This document shows, piece by piece, positions 8,039 through 14,158 of a stretch of DNA of 57,810 nt. This stretch comes from Collinsella tanakaei. GTDB lineage: Bacteria > Actinomycetota > Coriobacteriia > Coriobacteriales > Coriobacteriaceae. A program made the position numbers and the translations under genes. The first letter of the stretch is position 1, and each line of letters starts with the position of its first letter. Below the pieces are notes generated by a model. It was not told the DNA's origin. It did not search any database and was given only the letters and a program-made list of their open reading frames with translations. The DNA lies in contig NZ_JACJMB010000015.1 in assembly GCF_016902615.1 (NCBI RefSeq), forward strand, positions 1 through 57,810. The letters are read 5' to 3'.

Positions 8039-8439
8039 GAACAGAGAAGTTCCGACAGATCATTCGTCAGGCACCCTATCGCTCAGCTAATCACAGGGAC
8101 ATACGGAATGGGAGCCTGCGCCCAATCAGTGTAGTAAAGGGAGTGCATCGGGGCGCCCCGACGAGCGCGCGGGACACAAGATTTGCAGCCGAATCCACAA
8201 TCAGGGCGACGGAGCATAGTGATCGAAAACGAGGCCACAGAATGCCCTCTGCGGCCCGATACGACATGGACAGAGCATAGATGCCCTGAGGGAATTAACG
8301 AGGCTTCTAGAAACAGAGAGGGATTCGCCCTGGAATTCGTCCGCTCTGTCTGGTTTACGAGGTAACGAAAGCGTGAACTCGGCTTATTCCAGCTTGAAAA
8401 ACAGCAATTTACCTGCGGTTTTATTGACGATACGGATAA
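8039..8439. other. Intergenic stretch without a recognised gene
   Basis: About 400 bases between the glycosyltransferase start and the repeat at 8440. No coding pattern is convincing. Near the right end TTGACG at 8424-8429 stands 17 bases from TTATCT at 8447-8452, a possible but weak promoter for the degenerate surface-gene copy. Confidence 0.4.
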
Positions 8440-8512
8440 CTGGAGATTATCTGTTCCTCACGGAAGGAGAAAGACGTATGACAGCTTGCGTCAACAGGAA
8501 GCACACTAAGAA
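8440..8512 (+). repeat. Left arm of 73-bp perfect inverted repeat
   Basis: Positions 8440-8512 are identical to the reverse complement of 11647-11719. The arm contains the last 38 leader bases, the GGAAGGAGA ribosome site, ATG and 11 further codons. Similarity continues almost unbroken to about 8700 and then as diverged coding sequence to about 8890. Confidence 0.95.
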
Positions 8513-8969
8513 TGTGGCAGCCGTCGTCACCGCGTCCCTCGTGGGCGCCCTGAGCCTCGGCGTGGCACCCCGTGGCCGCCATGGGCACCGACGAGGGCAT
8601 CAGCACCCAGAGCGTGTCCGAGCAGGAGGCCTGGGCCAACGGCACCATCACCTACGCTCACGAAACCAGGGCTACATCATCGACGACCCGAGCAACATCG
8701 AGTTCGAGGTTGGCTCCGGCAGCAAGTACCCCATGGTCCTCGAGGTCACGCCTGAGTACGCCACCAAGGAGGTTCGTGTTAGCCAGAAAGACGTCGAGTA
8801 CTATCGCGGTGCCACCAAGATCAACCCCGAGACCATCCACGAGGCCGGCACCTACACGATGGTCATCAAGGCCCCCAGCACGTCAGGAGGCCTCATGCTT
8901 CGGATTGCTTCGATGGGCTTGCCTCGTCATGCGAGCAGTCTTGCATGGCGGCGCCGGGATCTCGATTAG
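8478..8969 (+). pseudogene. Degenerate, truncated 5' copy of the SLH surface-protein gene
   Basis: The copy starts with the same signal peptide as the intact gene at 9174-11681 (MTACVNRKHTK...). One extra C in the C-run at 8568-8571 shifts the frame, and a base missing near 8664 restores it, so about 31 codons over the signal-peptidase site and mature N-terminus are scrambled. In-frame similarity resumes (NQGYIIDDPSNIEFEVGSGS, later YTMVIKAPSTSGG) and ends at about 8890; the last 26 codons are unrelated. A continuous frame remains to the TAG at 8967-8969, giving 163 residues, but with a ruined cleavage site and none of the repeats or SLH domains. It reads as a silent remnant or donor cassette. 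Confidence 0.8.
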
Positions 8970-8976
8970 AAACAAC

Positions 8977-9014
8977 CGAAGGCGCCCTCCCCGCAACCGG
9001 GGAGGGCGCCTTCG
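8977..9014. terminator. Strong hairpin downstream of the degenerate copy
   Basis: A perfect 17-bp stem (8977-8993 with 8998-9014) with a 4-base loop, 8 bases after the stop of the degenerate copy. The following bases are only weakly T-rich (TTCC), so termination efficiency on the plus strand is uncertain. Confidence 0.6.
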
Positions 9015-9102
9015 TTCCGGAGCCTTATGCGCGACAGCTTGCTTGTGGTCAAAGGCCAGGGGCCCCACGCGTCCGGGCACCCGTGGCCAGCTGACGGGAA
9101 AA

Positions 9103-9130
9103 CCCCTGGGCAGGATAACCTGCCCAGGGG
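9103..9130 (-). terminator. Intrinsic terminator of the SLH surface-protein gene
   Basis: A perfect 12-bp stem (9103-9114 with 9119-9130), ATAA loop, followed on the minus strand by TTTT. It lies 44 bases past the stop at 9174. Confidence 0.85.
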
Positions 9131-9173
9131 AATAAGCTATCCCGATTCAGAGAAACGGAATTCAAGCGTCAGC

Positions 9174-11681
9174 CTACGGACGAGGAATGAGGTCCTCGGA
9201 ACCCTCGAGGGGCTTGGGCTGCAGGCGGACGGCCATCGTGGCGACCTCAGCGCGGTTGATCGGGTCGGAGGCGCGCAGCGGGCTGTCCTGGCCCATGATG
9301 CCGGCCTCAGCGGCCCAAGCGACGTACTCCTCGGCCCAGGGGGCGACGGTGTCGGCGTCATCGTACTTCGCGAGCACCTCGTCGGCGTCGACCTCGACGT
9401 CCTTGCCGGTCTTCTCGGCGTAAACGCAGAGCATCTTGGCGAGCTCCTGGCGGGAGATGTTGTCCTCCGGGCGGAAGTTGTTCGTGCCGGCGTCACCGCT
9501 GGTGATGCCGACGGCCTTGGCCCAGGCGATGGCCTTGGCGTAGTACATCGAGGAGTCGACGTCGTCGAAGCCGGTGACGTAGCCGTCGGTCTCGCTCTTG
9601 TAGTCCTCGAGCCAGGACGGGGAGGGCTGGCCGGCCATCTTGTACAGCGTCACGACGACGTCGCCGCGCTTGATGTTGTCGAGCGGGCCGAAGAACGTGG
9701 TGCCGTTGTAGCCGTTCATGTAGCCGAGCGCGTCAGCCTTGTAGATGTTCTCGGCGGCCCAATAGGTGGTCGGGACGTCGGAGAAGACCTTGGCGTCGTC
9801 GACCTTGAGGGTGTTCTCGGCCTCCTCGCCCAGGAAGACGTAGTTCTTCACGCCAGCGGCGATCTTGATGGAGGCCTTGTAGACGCCCTGCTCGACGATC
9901 TCGTCGGTGTCGACGGCCTTGCTCTCGCCCTCAGCGGTGAAGTAGAAGTGATCGAGCTCGATGGTGCCCTCAGGCAGACGAACCTCGTTGCCGTCCTTGT
10001 CGAGGACGTAGAAGTAGTAGCTCGCGGCCTCGCCGGTGTAGGGGATGAACGCCTCGTTGCCGAAGGCCTTCTCGGCGTCGGAGCCGATGTAGACCTTGGT
10101 GAGCGCGATCGGCTTCACGACGACGGTGAGCTCGCAGTCGCCGGTCAGGTTGTACAGATCGCTGGAGATGATGACGTGGTAGACGCCGGCATCGACGATG
10201 CTGTCAACAGTCTGGCCAAGGGAGTTCTTAACCGTGACGGTGTAGTCCTCACCAGCGGTCAGATTCTCGCCCTCGTGCTCGACGACAGTGCCGATGCGAT
10301 CGAGCACGTTCTCGCCGTCGTAGGTGACGGGTTCGACGTGGTCGACAACGGTGCCGTCAAGGGTAAAGTAGGCGTTGGCGTCAGCATTGATGTCGCCGTT
10401 GCGGGTCTTCACAGTCATGGAGACGGTGTCGCTGCCGTACTTGAACTGATTGGCCTTGGCGTCGACGCGCACGGTGACGGTGTAGTCGCCGGGGACGTCG
10501 TTGACCGTGTTGGCGTCGACAACCTCGCCGGCGGCATTGGTGATCACGATGCTGAGATCGCCAAAGAGAGCGGTGATCTTGTCAACATCAAAGTAGGTGC
10601 CGACCTTCTTGAGGTTCACATTCACGGTCTGGCCATCAAGGGCGACGCCGTCATACTTAATGTCGGCATCCTTGATCAGGATGTCAACGATGCTGAAGGT
10701 GGCCTCCTTGGAGCCCGTGAGGTTCGGGTTCTTGAGGGAGTTGGCGGCAACCTTAACCGTGTAGACGGTCTTGTTCTTGATGACGTGGTCACCGTTCTCG
10801 GCGCTCACGAACGTGATGTCGACATCGTCGGTCGTGTTCACGTCCATGCCGTCGATGGTGGCGTCGGTCGGCAGCCAATCGTTAACGGGGACAGTCGTGA
10901 CGTCAGTCACGGAGACCTCGGCGTTGGTGATGTCGAGCTTGTTCACCGTGAAGGGCAGCTGCACCTCAGAGCCGGCATAGTCACCGGTGCCGGTCAGAAC
11001 GGCAACATAGTCGCCTGCATCGATAGGAATGTTGCTCCCATCCGCGCTGACGAGGGGGCTATCGGAGCCGGCCTTGTAGAACACGACGTTTACATCGGTC
11101 GGCTGCAGAATCTTACCGTCGATGTAGAAGTTAACAAGCTGGGGCTCGCCGTTGTAGGTGAAGGTGGAGTTGCTCACGTCACCAGTCGCCGAGTTAAAGA
11201 GCTGAACGCCCTCGAGCGACTTGGCAACAATCTTGAACTCAACCTCGAGCACACCGCCGCGATACTCGCTGGTAGCGGGAGCGCTAATCTCCATCTTGTA
11301 GGTGCCGATGCCCCAATTGTAGCGGTTGGGGTTAGTGATCTGACGGCCAGCGGAGGTGAAGTACTTCACGTTGCGCTGGCTGACGCGAACCGCCTTGCCG
11401 TTCTTCGGGGTGACCTCGAGAACCATAGGATACTCGCTACCGGAGCCAGCCTCGAACTCGATGTTGCTCGGATCGCTGATGATATAGCCCTGGTTGTCGT
11501 GAGCGTAGGTGATGGTGCCGTTGGCCCAGGCCTCCTGCTCGGACACGCTCTGGGTGCTGATGCCCTCGTCGGTGGCCATGGCGGCCACGGGCGCCACGCC
11601 GAGGCTCAGGGCGCCCACGAGGGACGCGGTGACGACGGCTGCCACCTTCTTAGTGTGCTTCCTGTTGACGCAAGCTGTCAT
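9174..11681 (-). CDS. Large S-layer-type surface protein with three SLH domains
   Basis: An 835-residue secreted protein. The signal peptide MTACVNRKHTKKVAAVVTAS leads to a cleavage site near VAAMA. The middle (about 40-640) is a string of beta-rich, Ig-like modules separated by short linkers (repeating patterns such as GDYTVTVRVDA, AGVYHVIISSD, QGVYKASIKIA) with no enzyme motif. The C-terminus holds three SLH domains (about 650-830; FSDVPTTYWAAENI, FDDVDSSMYYAKAI, VAPWAEEYVAWAA). The ATG follows GGAAGGAGA at ideal spacing. It is likely an abundant surface-layer or adhesive protein. Its 5' end forms a 73-bp inverted repeat with the degenerate copy 2.5 kb away, next to a recombinase gene. Confidence 0.88.
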   Translation of the reverse strand: MTACVNRKHTKKVAAVVTASLVGALSLGVAPVAAMATDEGISTQSVSEQEAWANGTITYAHDNQGYIISDPSNIEFEAGSGSEYPMVLEVTPKNGKAVRVSQRNVKYFTSAGRQITNPNRYNWGIGTYKMEISAPATSEYRGGVLEVEFKIVAKSLEGVQLFNSATGDVSNSTFTYNGEPQLVNFYIDGKILQPTDVNVVFYKAGSDSPLVSADGSNIPIDAGDYVAVLTGTGDYAGSEVQLPFTVNKLDITNAEVSVTDVTTVPVNDWLPTDATIDGMDVNTTDDVDITFVSAENGDHVIKNKTVYTVKVAANSLKNPNLTGSKEATFSIVDILIKDADIKYDGVALDGQTVNVNLKKVGTYFDVDKITALFGDLSIVITNAAGEVVDANTVNDVPGDYTVTVRVDAKANQFKYGSDTVSMTVKTRNGDINADANAYFTLDGTVVDHVEPVTYDGENVLDRIGTVVEHEGENLTAGEDYTVTVKNSLGQTVDSIVDAGVYHVIISSDLYNLTGDCELTVVVKPIALTKVYIGSDAEKAFGNEAFIPYTGEAASYYFYVLDKDGNEVRLPEGTIELDHFYFTAEGESKAVDTDEIVEQGVYKASIKIAAGVKNYVFLGEEAENTLKVDDAKVFSDVPTTYWAAENIYKADALGYMNGYNGTTFFGPLDNIKRGDVVVTLYKMAGQPSPSWLEDYKSETDGYVTGFDDVDSSMYYAKAIAWAKAVGITSGDAGTNNFRPEDNISRQELAKMLCVYAEKTGKDVEVDADEVLAKYDDADTVAPWAEEYVAWAAEAGIMGQDSPLRASDPINRAEVATMAVRLQPKPLEGSEDLIPRP

Positions 11682-11719
11682 ACGTCTTTCTCCTTCCGTG
11701 AGGAACAGATAATCTCCAG
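11647..11719 (-). repeat. Right arm of 73-bp perfect inverted repeat
   Basis: Reverse-complement match, base for base, to 8440-8512. The outer edge at 11719 falls near the predicted transcription start of the intact surface gene, so its promoter lies just outside the repeat while leader, ribosome site and first codons lie inside. Confidence 0.95.
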
Positions 11720-11725
11720 ATATAG

Positions 11726-11754
11726 AGTCTAGTCTACTTGCGCGCCTTTTCCAA
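11726..11754 (-). promoter_or_regulatory. Predicted promoter of the SLH surface-protein gene
   Basis: On the minus strand TTGGAA (11749-11754) and TAGACT (11726-11731) are separated by 17 bases, a good sigma-70-type pair. Initiation would fall near 11719, giving a 38-base leader. Confidence 0.6.
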
Positions 11755-12049
11755 GTCTATGACTTCGAATCGACACGAAAGTAGCCTAAGCTCTACCGGT
11801 GGAACTCAGTCTAGCACCGATTTATTCTTTGTCCACCTTTTTTCAGGCGAGTTTTCCTGTTTTCCGCCTCACATTGACACTGATTTCCTGCCGTTTTATT
11901 CAAATACGTCCTCTGACCCCGCATTTAGTGCCCTTTTCTCTTTCCTATACCCAATATATGCAGGTTATTCGATTGGCAATACTACGCATCAGAACGTCTT
12001 TGCATTTCCCTTTTGTTTCGGGGTTCTCCGCAATTTGAACACCTCTACC
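11755..12049. other. AT-rich intergenic stretch
   Basis: Markedly AT-richer than the neighbours. It holds upstream sequence of the surface-gene promoter and the region just past the recombinase stop. No gene, hairpin or clear recombination site was seen. Confidence 0.4.
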
Positions 12050-13096
12050 TCACGATTTGCTGATAACGTCGCGCGGATTATGTTCCTCCATGACCTGTTT
12101 CAGGCTCGCGAACGAAACGTACGTATACCGCTCCGTCGTCTTCACTGAGCTGTGTCCGACCAGCTGTTGGATATACCTAATACTAACCCCCTGCTCTAAC
12201 AGGGTCGTAGCAAAGGTATGACGAAACATATGCGGAGTAATGTGGTTCTCCACCCCCACCTCGCTTGTACGCTTACGGATAATCTTTCGAACCGCCTGAT
12301 CGGTCAGGCGGTGTTTGCTCCTACTTAAGAAGAGCGCATCGGTGCTCGGCTGAGACCAGAGGGTTTCGGGCCCTTTGCGCGCAATCATGTACTCCTCCAT
12401 CACCGCGATGGTCTGCTTGGACCCCAGGATGACGACGCGCTCCTTCGATCCCTTGCCGAACACGCGCACCGTCTTCGACTCCAAATCGATGCTCTCTATA
12501 TTGAGTGAGCACAACTCGCTTACGCGAATGCCGGTAGCCGTGAGCATCTCCAGCACTGCCTGGTCGCGCAGGGCGATGGCGTCATGCTACCAGGCCCTCT
12601 TGCGCTTCTTCTTTTCCGTAAACGGAGAGCCCGCCGGCTCGAGAATCCGTCTCAGCTCCGGCAGTGCGATGACCCTCGGCAGCAGCGGCGGCATGCGCAC
12701 GTTGATCTCCAGGTTCTCAAACGGACTGGCCGAGATAAGCCGCTCGCGTTTGAGCCAATTCGCCCATGCCCTCATCGAGGCGAGCTTGCGCCGCACGATG
12801 CTTGCCGCCCATTTGTGGTTGAGGTGCGCCACGTAGCTGCGCATGGACTCGCGGTCGAACTGGAGTCTGCCCTCGTTGAGCCACGCCATAAACTGGATGA
12901 TGTCGCAGCTATACGCCTTGATGGTCTTTTCGTCGAGTCTCCTCTGGTCGTGACAGCGGTCCATATAGAGCCTCAGGTAGCCTTCAAGCATAAGATTCTG
13001 GGAGGCAGCGTCCTGAACGCTCAGAACATGCACGGCCTCAAGGTCCCCGATCGCCCTCATCTCATGAGCGTTCTGTACGGTCGATTCTGCCATCAT
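12050..13096 (-). pseudogene. XerC/XerD-like tyrosine recombinase interrupted by one in-frame amber codon
   Basis: The reading frame runs from ATG at 13096 (GGAGG just upstream) to 12050, about 348 codons, with a single TAG at 12587-12589 (codon 170). Before the stop is the core-binding SAM-like domain (KTIKAYSCDIIQFMAWL, VRRKLASMRAWANWLKRE). After it, in the same frame, is the whole catalytic domain: Arg in TGIRVSEL, HMFRH (His-x-x-Arg), GHSS and the nucleophile Tyr in TTERYTYV. So this is a nonsense change, not a frameshift. A new start at 12556 would give a catalytic fragment alone. It is probably inactive now, but everything except that codon looks intact. It lies 370 bases from the inverted surface-gene pair it might invert. 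Confidence 0.85.
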
Positions 13097-13352: not shown

Positions 13353-14108
13353 CTAGAAGTCGAAGGCCTGGGCGATGTCGCAGGAAATGAGGACATCGGC
13401 ATTTCGGTCCTGCGGAGTGGGATCGCGGTTGATGATGACAAGCTTGTCGCCTTGGAAGTACTGCGTGAGACCCGCCGCCGGATACACCACGAGCGAGGTA
13501 CCGCCGATCACGAGCATGTCCGCCTGCGCAATGGCGTTCACCGCACCCATGAGCACGCCCTCGTCGAGCGATTCCTCGTAGAGCACCACGTCCGGCTTGA
13601 TGCGACCCCCGCAGACCGGGCAGATGGGGATGCCGCGCTCATTCTCGTGTCTGCGCGCGCAGATCCACTCGGCGTCGTAGACAGACCCACACTTCTGGCA
13701 GATGTTCCGGTGTACTGAGCCGTGAAGCTCCCAGACGCGCTCGGATCCGGCCATCTGGTGCAGACCGTCGATATTCTGCGTCACGACGGCATCAAGCTTG
13801 CCCGCCTCCTCGAGCTTAGCAAGCTTGACGTGTGCACGGTTTGGTTTGGCGTCCAGCGCGATCATCTTCTTGCGGTAGAAGTCGAAGAACTCCGCGGGGT
13901 GGGTCACGTAGAAGGAATGCGAGAGCATGGTCTCGGGCGGATAGGCGAACTGCTGATGGTAGAGACCATCCACGCTGCGAAAGTCGGGAATGCCACTTGC
14001 CGTGGACACGCCGGCGCCGCCGAAGAAGACCGCATGGCTGTGCTCGGCGAACAACTGCTTGAGCTCAGACGCCGCCTGCGCGGAATCGGTTATGACCAAA
14101 GATGCCAT
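13353..14108 (-). CDS. cobB: NAD-dependent protein deacylase, Sir2 family
   Basis: A 251-residue sirtuin that removes acyl groups from lysines, consuming NAD. Motifs in order: GAGVSTASGIPDFRS (NAD loop), TQNIDGLH, catalytic His in ELHGSVH, two zinc-binding Cys pairs (CQKCGS and CPVCGG), GTSLVVYPAAGL and INRDP. Length and order are standard for bacterial class U/III sirtuins. The ATG at 14108 has AGAGGG five bases upstream; a Met eight codons earlier has no ribosome site. It is transcribed alone, 51 bases from the acidic membrane-protein gene upstream and on the same strand. Confidence 0.93.
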   Translation of the reverse strand: MASLVITDSAQAASELKQLFAEHSHAVFFGGAGVSTASGIPDFRSVDGLYHQQFAYPPETMLSHSFYVTHPAEFFDFYRKKMIALDAKPNRAHVKLAKLEEAGKLDAVVTQNIDGLHQMAGSERVWELHGSVHRNICQKCGSVYDAEWICARRHENERGIPICPVCGGRIKPDVVLYEESLDEGVLMGAVNAIAQADMLVIGGTSLVVYPAAGLTQYFQGDKLVIINRDPTPQDRNADVLISCDIAQAFDF

Positions 14109-14158
14109 GGTACCCTCTTTCATATATCGCACGCGATTACGCGCCCTCGGGCGCGTCC

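Follow-up and report, generated by a model that had tools for sequence, protein, structure and literature searches.

A predicted site-specific inversion system for SLH surface proteins, with a minimal and probably locked copy in Collinsella tanakaei

The window analysed here is a stretch of 57,810 nucleotides from Collinsella tanakaei (contig NZ_JACJMB010000015.1), in which two copies of the 5' end of an SLH surface protein gene face each other beside a gene for a tyrosine recombinase. We consider it very likely that a site-specific inversion system chooses which SLH surface protein is made, and that this locus is a minimal and probably locked member of it. This reading is drawn from the sequence of the recombination sites, the architecture of the gene arrays, their conserved ends with a promoter block, the co-occurrence of the repeated arm with the recombinase, and two recombination footprints in relatives. 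Where the system is intact, in relatives, SLH genes stand in convergent pairs between two array ends, here called T and R, and their starts share a recombination site, a ribosome-binding region and a near-identical signal peptide. Just outside the R end lies the gene for a dedicated Xer-like tyrosine recombinase, which would exchange strands within the 7-nucleotide spacer of the site, and the resulting inversion would put a different gene body behind the R promoter. The sole full gene of the array in the window is presumably ON because it stands at R. With a premature stop in its recombinase and a frameshifted stump for a partner gene, the window copy has probably ceased to switch and is probably locked. 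The elements on which this reading depends are the following (window coordinates):

8408..8422, plus strand: T element TTTACCTGCGGTTTT, a conserved sequence outside the array at the end away from the recombinase.
8428..8458, plus strand: T-side recombination site, with outer arm CGATACGGATAA, spacer CTGGAGA (8440-8446) and inner arm TTATCTGTTCCT.
8478..8969, plus strand: remnant of the 5' end of an SLH gene, with an intact signal-peptide start, two indels, 163 codons and no SLH domains.
9174..11681, minus strand: SLH surface protein of 835 residues, with a signal peptide (by eye), a divergent middle and three SLH domains.
11701..11731, minus strand: R-side recombination site, with outer arm TAGACTCTATAT, spacer CTGGAGA (11719-11713) and inner arm TTATCTGTTCCT.
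11808..11836, minus strand: conserved R block, with the predicted promoter TGGACA-16-TAGACT and an extended -10 (TG before the -10), from a consensus scan and conservation.
12050..12586, minus strand: catalytic part of the recombinase, in frame after the stop (listed open reading frame 12050-12556; Pfam Phage_integrase, 2.2e-42).
12587..13096, minus strand: N-terminal part of the recombinase, ending at an in-frame TAG.

Positions 8436-8663 match positions 11723-11497 in inverted orientation over 228 nucleotides with 97.8% identity, far above chance expectation. Segment by segment, the identity is 98% between 8436-8570 and 11589-11723, 99% between 8569-8663 and 11497-11591, and 85% between 8664-8763 and 11396-11495. 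A first-pass annotation of this DNA had described facing 5' ends sharing a 73-bp perfect inverted repeat, and the block is indeed exact at 8440-8512 and 11647-11719; the identity starts at the first base of the 7-nucleotide spacer. A sequence search of the window's genome (G000) with E ≤ 0.001 placed the arm at these two positions only. The annotation was equally right that one copy continues into a full protein of 835 residues, which carries three SLH domains, and that the other is truncated. Compared with the right copy, the left stump (ATG at 8478) has gained one base near 8570 and lost one near 8664, and it shares 55% identity with residues 1-145 of the SLH protein. The recombinase, placed about 370 bases away in that annotation, is upstream of the SLH gene and ends at 12050, with 368 bases between this end and the SLH start codon at 11681.

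The comparison covered 65 genomes of the family, with thresholds of E ≤ 1e-18 for the N-terminal part of the recombinase and E ≤ 1e-6 for an 80-bp arm. Arm and recombinase were detected in the same 8 of the 65 genomes, namely that of the window, G014, G020, G030, G039 and, in another genus, G062 to G064. Within the genus, 43 genomes were searched, and the recombinase was found in 5 of them (E ≤ 1e-40). A marginal arm match in G016 (35 nucleotides, E = 1.2e-4) was dropped, being absent at E ≤ 1e-6. The probability of hitting the same eight genomes by chance is 1/C(65,8), about 2e-10, as calculated by hand and ignoring relatedness.

The annotation had kept a simple gene duplication as its alternative, taken here to mean an inverted copy that then decayed and has no role in recombination. 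This would suit the window taken alone, where one copy is a decayed stump. However, the same architecture, with conserved T and R ends and a recombinase, recurs in 8 genomes of two genera, and arm and recombinase always occur together among the 65. Duplication alone was rejected because of this recurrence and perfect co-occurrence: we find it scarcely credible, it is already refuted as a full account, and it applies at most to the state in which the window copy is now found.

The recombination site was delimited by aligning the gene starts of the window and its relatives, whose outer flanks differ up to the site and agree from there on. The order is an outer arm, whose end is typically ATAA or TAA, a 7-nucleotide spacer, the inner arm TTATCTGTTCCT, the ribosome-binding region and the ATG. 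The spacer is CTGGCGA in the relatives, where the typical site reads GATAA / CTGGCGA / TTATCTGTTCCT, and CTGGAGA in the window. We found 26 complete sites in the 8 genomes, 2 of them belonging to the window. Because the search pattern preset most of the inner arm and the spacer, only the free positions of the site count as evidence. The 2-3 nucleotides following the inner arm are the same within each genome at all 26 sites and different between genome groups, and the two window sites have in common a spacer variant that occurs at none of the 24 others. Strands alternate in 13 of 13 neighbouring site pairs, 9 of which enclose convergent genes and 4 of which enclose spacer regions; this count includes a site placed manually at the end of G039:C8 and leaves out a loose start-codon match lacking a site (G039:C8 6501+). 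The viral contigs of IMG/VR contained no exact match to the 20-nucleotide site pattern.

Five relatives (G014, G020, G039, G062 and G063) carry convergent SLH gene pairs, in arrays of up to six gene starts (G039). The encoded proteins have near-identical signal peptides, a divergent middle and an SLH C-terminus. These five genomes hold 23 gene starts that form a family with a shared 5' end and a site upstream of the start codon, as expected of a locus of the vpma/vsp kind discussed below. Twenty-four gene starts were read, including that of the window. Of these, 20 encode proteins of at least 825 residues with a stop, one runs off the contig end at 854 residues, and three are broken, with 118, 461 and 670 residues (L066:8362 and 14203; L160:20). 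The first 24 residues or so do not vary between the genes read in G014, nor between those read in G039, and occur as two close variants each in G020, G062 and G063. Over the 21 proteins longer than 700 residues, mean pairwise identity is 80% for residues 1-30, 19-37% for residues 31-630 and 38-50% for the SLH part. The divergent middle of 7 SLH proteins gave only sub-threshold matches in Pfam. As a separate observation, the window's genome is rich in SLH proteins, with 41 SLH-domain matches over many contigs.

The spacer regions between pairs contain toxin-antitoxin or abortive-infection-like (Abi-like) genes in 4 of the 4 read, a proportion that stands without a background rate for comparison:

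L065:6504-7649; L066:14410-18359; L159:163-1194; L163:6463-8004: spacer cargo, comprising Abi_2/AbiD twice, HTH with HipA, and Fic with SocA_Panacea and RelA_SpoT.

We conjecture that these genes might guard the array against deletion. Transposase-like open reading frames (rve, HTH_Tnp_1) and a UbiA-family gene were also seen in G063, inside a convergent SLH pair (L163:10844-13732).

The outer flanks of the sites are of three kinds, R, T and inner, the inner flanks being C/T-rich in G039, G062 and G063. The T element was recovered by pattern in 7 of the 8 system genomes and by alignment in all 8, in two genera; its pattern had five chance-type matches elsewhere in the loci scanned. The R block lies on the recombinase side in 7 of the 8 system genomes by pattern, and in the eighth (G039) by alignment only. 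This conserved block occurs at the recombinase-side array end only, where it is predicted to hold the single expression promoter, so that the R end would drive expression. The evidence for the R promoter is its conservation and not the scan, because the consensus scan of the window found 3 sites, including this one, where 1.4 were expected. The first-pass annotation had placed a strong right promoter just outside the arm, where a promoter-like pair of hexamers does exist:

11726..11754, minus strand: promoter-like TTGGAA-17-TAGACT abutting the site, seen by eye and absent from the list of the promoter scan.

It was rejected as the main promoter, since both hexamers are present only in G000 and G020, and the conserved block lies further out.

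All 8 arm-bearing genomes have the dedicated tyrosine recombinase at the locus, beside the R block, and this enzyme presumably acts on the sites. The best scores of the relatives' recombinases are with XerC and XerD, and the site, with two arms around a short spacer, recalls that of the XerC/XerD system; we take the window site to be dif-like. A general Xer/dif recombinase would pass the curated XerC or XerD cut-off and be general in the group, whereas the G020 protein reaches 244 bits for XerC and 232 for XerD, below both cut-offs (335 and 330, respectively), and the recombinase is confined to 8 of the 65 genomes. An assignment of the recombinase as a phage or plasmid gene was also rejected, all matches (212 plasmid records and 48 phage records) being below 60% identity. 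An in-frame TAG (12587-12589) in the linker before the catalytic domain splits the window's copy of the gene, a feature absent from the first-pass annotation.

The window could nonetheless be a working ON/OFF switch, alternating the full gene and the stump behind the promoter, if the stop were a sequencing error, were read through, or if the recombinase acted in pieces. Both of its sites are intact and have the same spacer, the catalytic half is an open frame that matches Phage_integrase, and the perfect identity of the 73-bp arms suggests that they have undergone exchange or recent homogenisation. We judge this rather unlikely: among the relatives' matches to the N-terminal part, the frame is open over at least 362 residues in 7 of 7, the partner gene has two indels and no SLH part, and the next-best two recombinases of the window's genome are 38% and 34% identical to this one in the catalytic part.

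Footprints of recombination were found in two relatives. In G039, the gene at the start of contig C3 equals gene 1 of contig C10 for 480 nucleotides to the contig end (440 from the start codon on and 40 before), and the outer flanks differ. The flank before gene 1 equals the flank before gene 4 for 366 nucleotides, and equals all 381 nucleotides at the end of contig C8. The switch is confined to the 34-bp interval TAACTGGCGATTATCTGTTCCTTTGGAAGGAGAA, immediately after which a length variant of one base travels with the gene. The simplest reading of these junctions is that both orientations would be present in the sample.

In G014, an inversion of about 157 kb is spliced at the spacer inside a DUF4956 gene (L056:6243-6386 and L053:7655-8212). 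At the R half-site, the first part of this gene, adjoining a VTC-domain gene, follows right after the spacer; the rest of the split gene stands in front of a distant SLH gene on the same contig, as reciprocal inversion products. The two spacers are CTGGCGA (site) and ATGGCGA (pseudo-site), and because each product retains its own first base, the exchange is located within TGGCGA. When the flanks are rejoined they encode one open protein of 228 residues. Nine loci of other genomes align with it across the junction (residues 10-228), a tenth from residue 51 only, and two more distant copies from residue 35-36. The intact copy of the split gene in G002 has a Pfam DUF4956 match.

In Campylobacter fetus sap, repeated 5' ends are exchanged by homologous (RecA) recombination. 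Such recombination could also operate here, with the recombinase as a bystander, given that arms share up to about 150-230 nucleotides within a genome. Against this, the G039 crossover falls within a 34-bp interval at the site, the pseudo-site recombined in G014 has TGGCGA in common with the true site and little similarity around it, and arms and recombinase co-occur perfectly; we consider a RecA mechanism highly improbable.

The surroundings of the array are themselves conserved. On the recombinase side the island is bordered by the following gene:

13353..14132, minus strand: Sir2-family gene (Pfam SIR2).

The Sir2 gene adjoins the recombinase, or lies within 2 kb of it (1.7 kb in G064), in 7 of the 8 system genomes. 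In 7 of the 8, the neighbours of the T end are a subtilase-SLH gene and folPK, and those of the R end are the recombinase and Sir2. The folPK gene of the window has pterin-binding and HPPK domains by Pfam, and between the subtilase gene and T the window and G020 have a gene of 573 residues with no Pfam match. Only the window has both ends undisturbed on one contig; they are on separate contigs in G020, G030 and G062-G064, the inversion described above has displaced the R end in G014, and in G039 the recombinase and the Sir2 gene are on different contigs. We surveyed Sir2 loci from 30 of 36 matched genomes, 4 of the 30 having the system. In the genomes without it, Sir2 adjoins folPK in 26 of 26 examined, at the place where system genomes carry the island.

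This distribution, and the location of the G039 recombinase locus elsewhere, would fit a mobile element with the recombinase as its integrase and the gene-start repeats as by-products. We regard that as improbable, given that the sites lie at gene starts on alternating strands and not at the island borders, and that both genera have the island at one and the same place, an arrangement that vertical inheritance with losses would also produce. Either the island was acquired a single time and then lost many times, or it arrived at this place on more than one occasion.

Two further elements lie between the convergent gene copies of the window:

8977..9014, no strand assigned: terminator-like hairpin between the convergent genes, from the hairpin scan.
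9103..9130, no strand assigned: second hairpin, 3' of the SLH gene, terminator-like by eye only and not on the list of the scan.

An open frame of 901 codons (9027-11732, plus strand) runs antisense to the SLH gene; it is probably an effect of GC-rich codon use.

Several observations weigh against a site-specific inversion system. The co-occurrence figure for arm and recombinase ignores shared ancestry, and the case for expression from R rests on a consensus match, albeit a conserved one. In the window both the recombinase and the partner gene are broken. The window locus is seen in one orientation only. The mixed junctions of G039 could be real recent duplications of about 370-480 bp. Stops interrupt the G039 gene that currently occupies R (codon 119) and its partner (codon 462). 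A frameshift breaks one gene of G062, and the R end of G014 is now cut off from SLH genes. Both ends are present in G030 and G064, and no gene body was found in G030 by arm and SLH-protein searches, nor in G064 by arm searches only. Finally, the count of 20 of 25 arm-bearing contigs, in 7 of the 8 genomes, that end at an arm speaks in favour of the system, but contig ends at repeats are expected whether the repeats are mobile or not. With these points taken into account, site-specific inversion remains our preferred reading; switching would be reversible in live cells, and the function would be surface variation, perhaps serving immune evasion, phage escape or adhesion.

Known systems offer several comparisons. 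In Mycoplasma agalactiae vpma, proposed sites lie at -1 to -72 before each start codon, there is one promoter with xer1 beside the locus, and inversions bring silent open reading frames to the promoter (PMC2268961). The system proposed here would be a close match to vpma in the way it works: like vpma and M. bovis vsp (recombinases Xer1 and Mbr; PMC2268961), it has a surface-protein family, sites in the 5' untranslated region and an adjacent tyrosine recombinase. It differs in that the proteins are SLH proteins and not lipoproteins, that alternating convergent pairs stand between two distinct conserved ends, that the site sequence is another, that the spacer regions read contain toxin-antitoxin or Abi-like genes, and that it is known from sequence alone.

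In Lactobacillus acidophilus, a chromosomal inversion swaps the active and silent surface-layer genes slpA and slpB (PMC7858073, citing Boot et al. 1996). The first-pass annotation had proposed an inversion locus beside a tyrosine recombinase with this logic. It was right in kind, and the two-gene case resembles the window; however, the switch is probably locked here, and the window lacks an inverted pair of full S-layer genes with a common 5' region, one copy being a stump. Furthermore, the relatives have multi-gene arrays that, judged by layout, are closer to mycoplasma vpma/vsp than to a two-gene switch. Unlike slpA/slpB, the present system has an adjacent recombinase gene, up to six gene starts (G039) and SLH-domain anchoring; this comparison concerns features other than the promoter and site geometry of slp.

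The Clostridioides difficile cell-wall protein CwpV is phase-variable through a genetic switch, as we propose for the SLH proteins, but a single cell-wall protein gene is involved there (cwpV; PMC2784873), whereas whole gene bodies among several would be exchanged here. Shufflons with their Rci invertases likewise show multiple inversion, a dedicated invertase and loci that are hard to assemble; they generate PilV pilus variants (PMC5430464, PMC11852207), whereas here whole mature proteins would be placed behind one 5' end.

For this bacterial group, no such system was found described in the titles and abstract openings among the matches listed, a scope outside which most subscription papers fall. 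Strong claims of novelty are nevertheless weakened because inversions are already known in the phylum: they were reported in 3 of 19 Actinobacteria species (PMC5903667), and at a median of 14 invertons per Actinobacteriota genome in the community studied in PMC11892184. The main texts of these two papers contain no match to Coriobacter, Olsenella, Collinsella or S-layer.

More distant relatives of the recombinase were sought in genome contigs, a search from which records near the window's genome may be excluded. It gave 35 stretches, 4 of them confirmed, all with Oscillospiraceae-type record titles. These four clostridial loci carry recombinases with 39-41% identity, and all four have a hairpin and a GATAA-N7-TTATC site 3' of the recombinase. 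In three of the four an inverted second site bounds convergent genes (L067:10546-13399, L068:10559-15626 and L070:10549-16929); the fourth contig ends 4 nucleotides past the site. As cargo, one pair has a carbamoyltransferase facing an AAA/STAND-like protein; in another, ATP-grasp and glycosyltransferase genes lie opposite a protein whose matches to SIR2, NACHT and TPR are weak and sub-threshold; the third belongs to no clear family.

Tentatively, this Xer-like clade with GATAA-N7-TTATC sites beside the recombinase gene might be a general convergent-cassette switch, with one promoter outside the invertible segment and facing gene sets inside, an extension that we see as possible rather than probable. 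In the window's family the cassettes would be SLH genes, and the toxin-antitoxin or Abi genes of the spacer regions may penalise deletion of cassettes between direct-repeat sites. The Oscillospiraceae cassettes would set SIR2/STAND/AAA defence-like genes against carbamoyltransferase or glycosyltransferase genes, and may alternate defence with surface chemistry.

If the proposed system is real, this bacterial family would have a multi-gene antigenic-variation system of the mycoplasma vpma type, whose site is mapped, whose expression end is conserved and whose recombination has left footprints in natural genomes. The breaks of assemblies at these loci would then have an explanation, and the window would offer a naturally locked example. 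The toxin-antitoxin and Abi-like genes between pairs would make it testable whether such genes guard arrays against deletion. Likewise, the presence of this site geometry in Oscillospiraceae, next to genes that are in part defence-like, would make testable the idea that defence can be switched by the same device.

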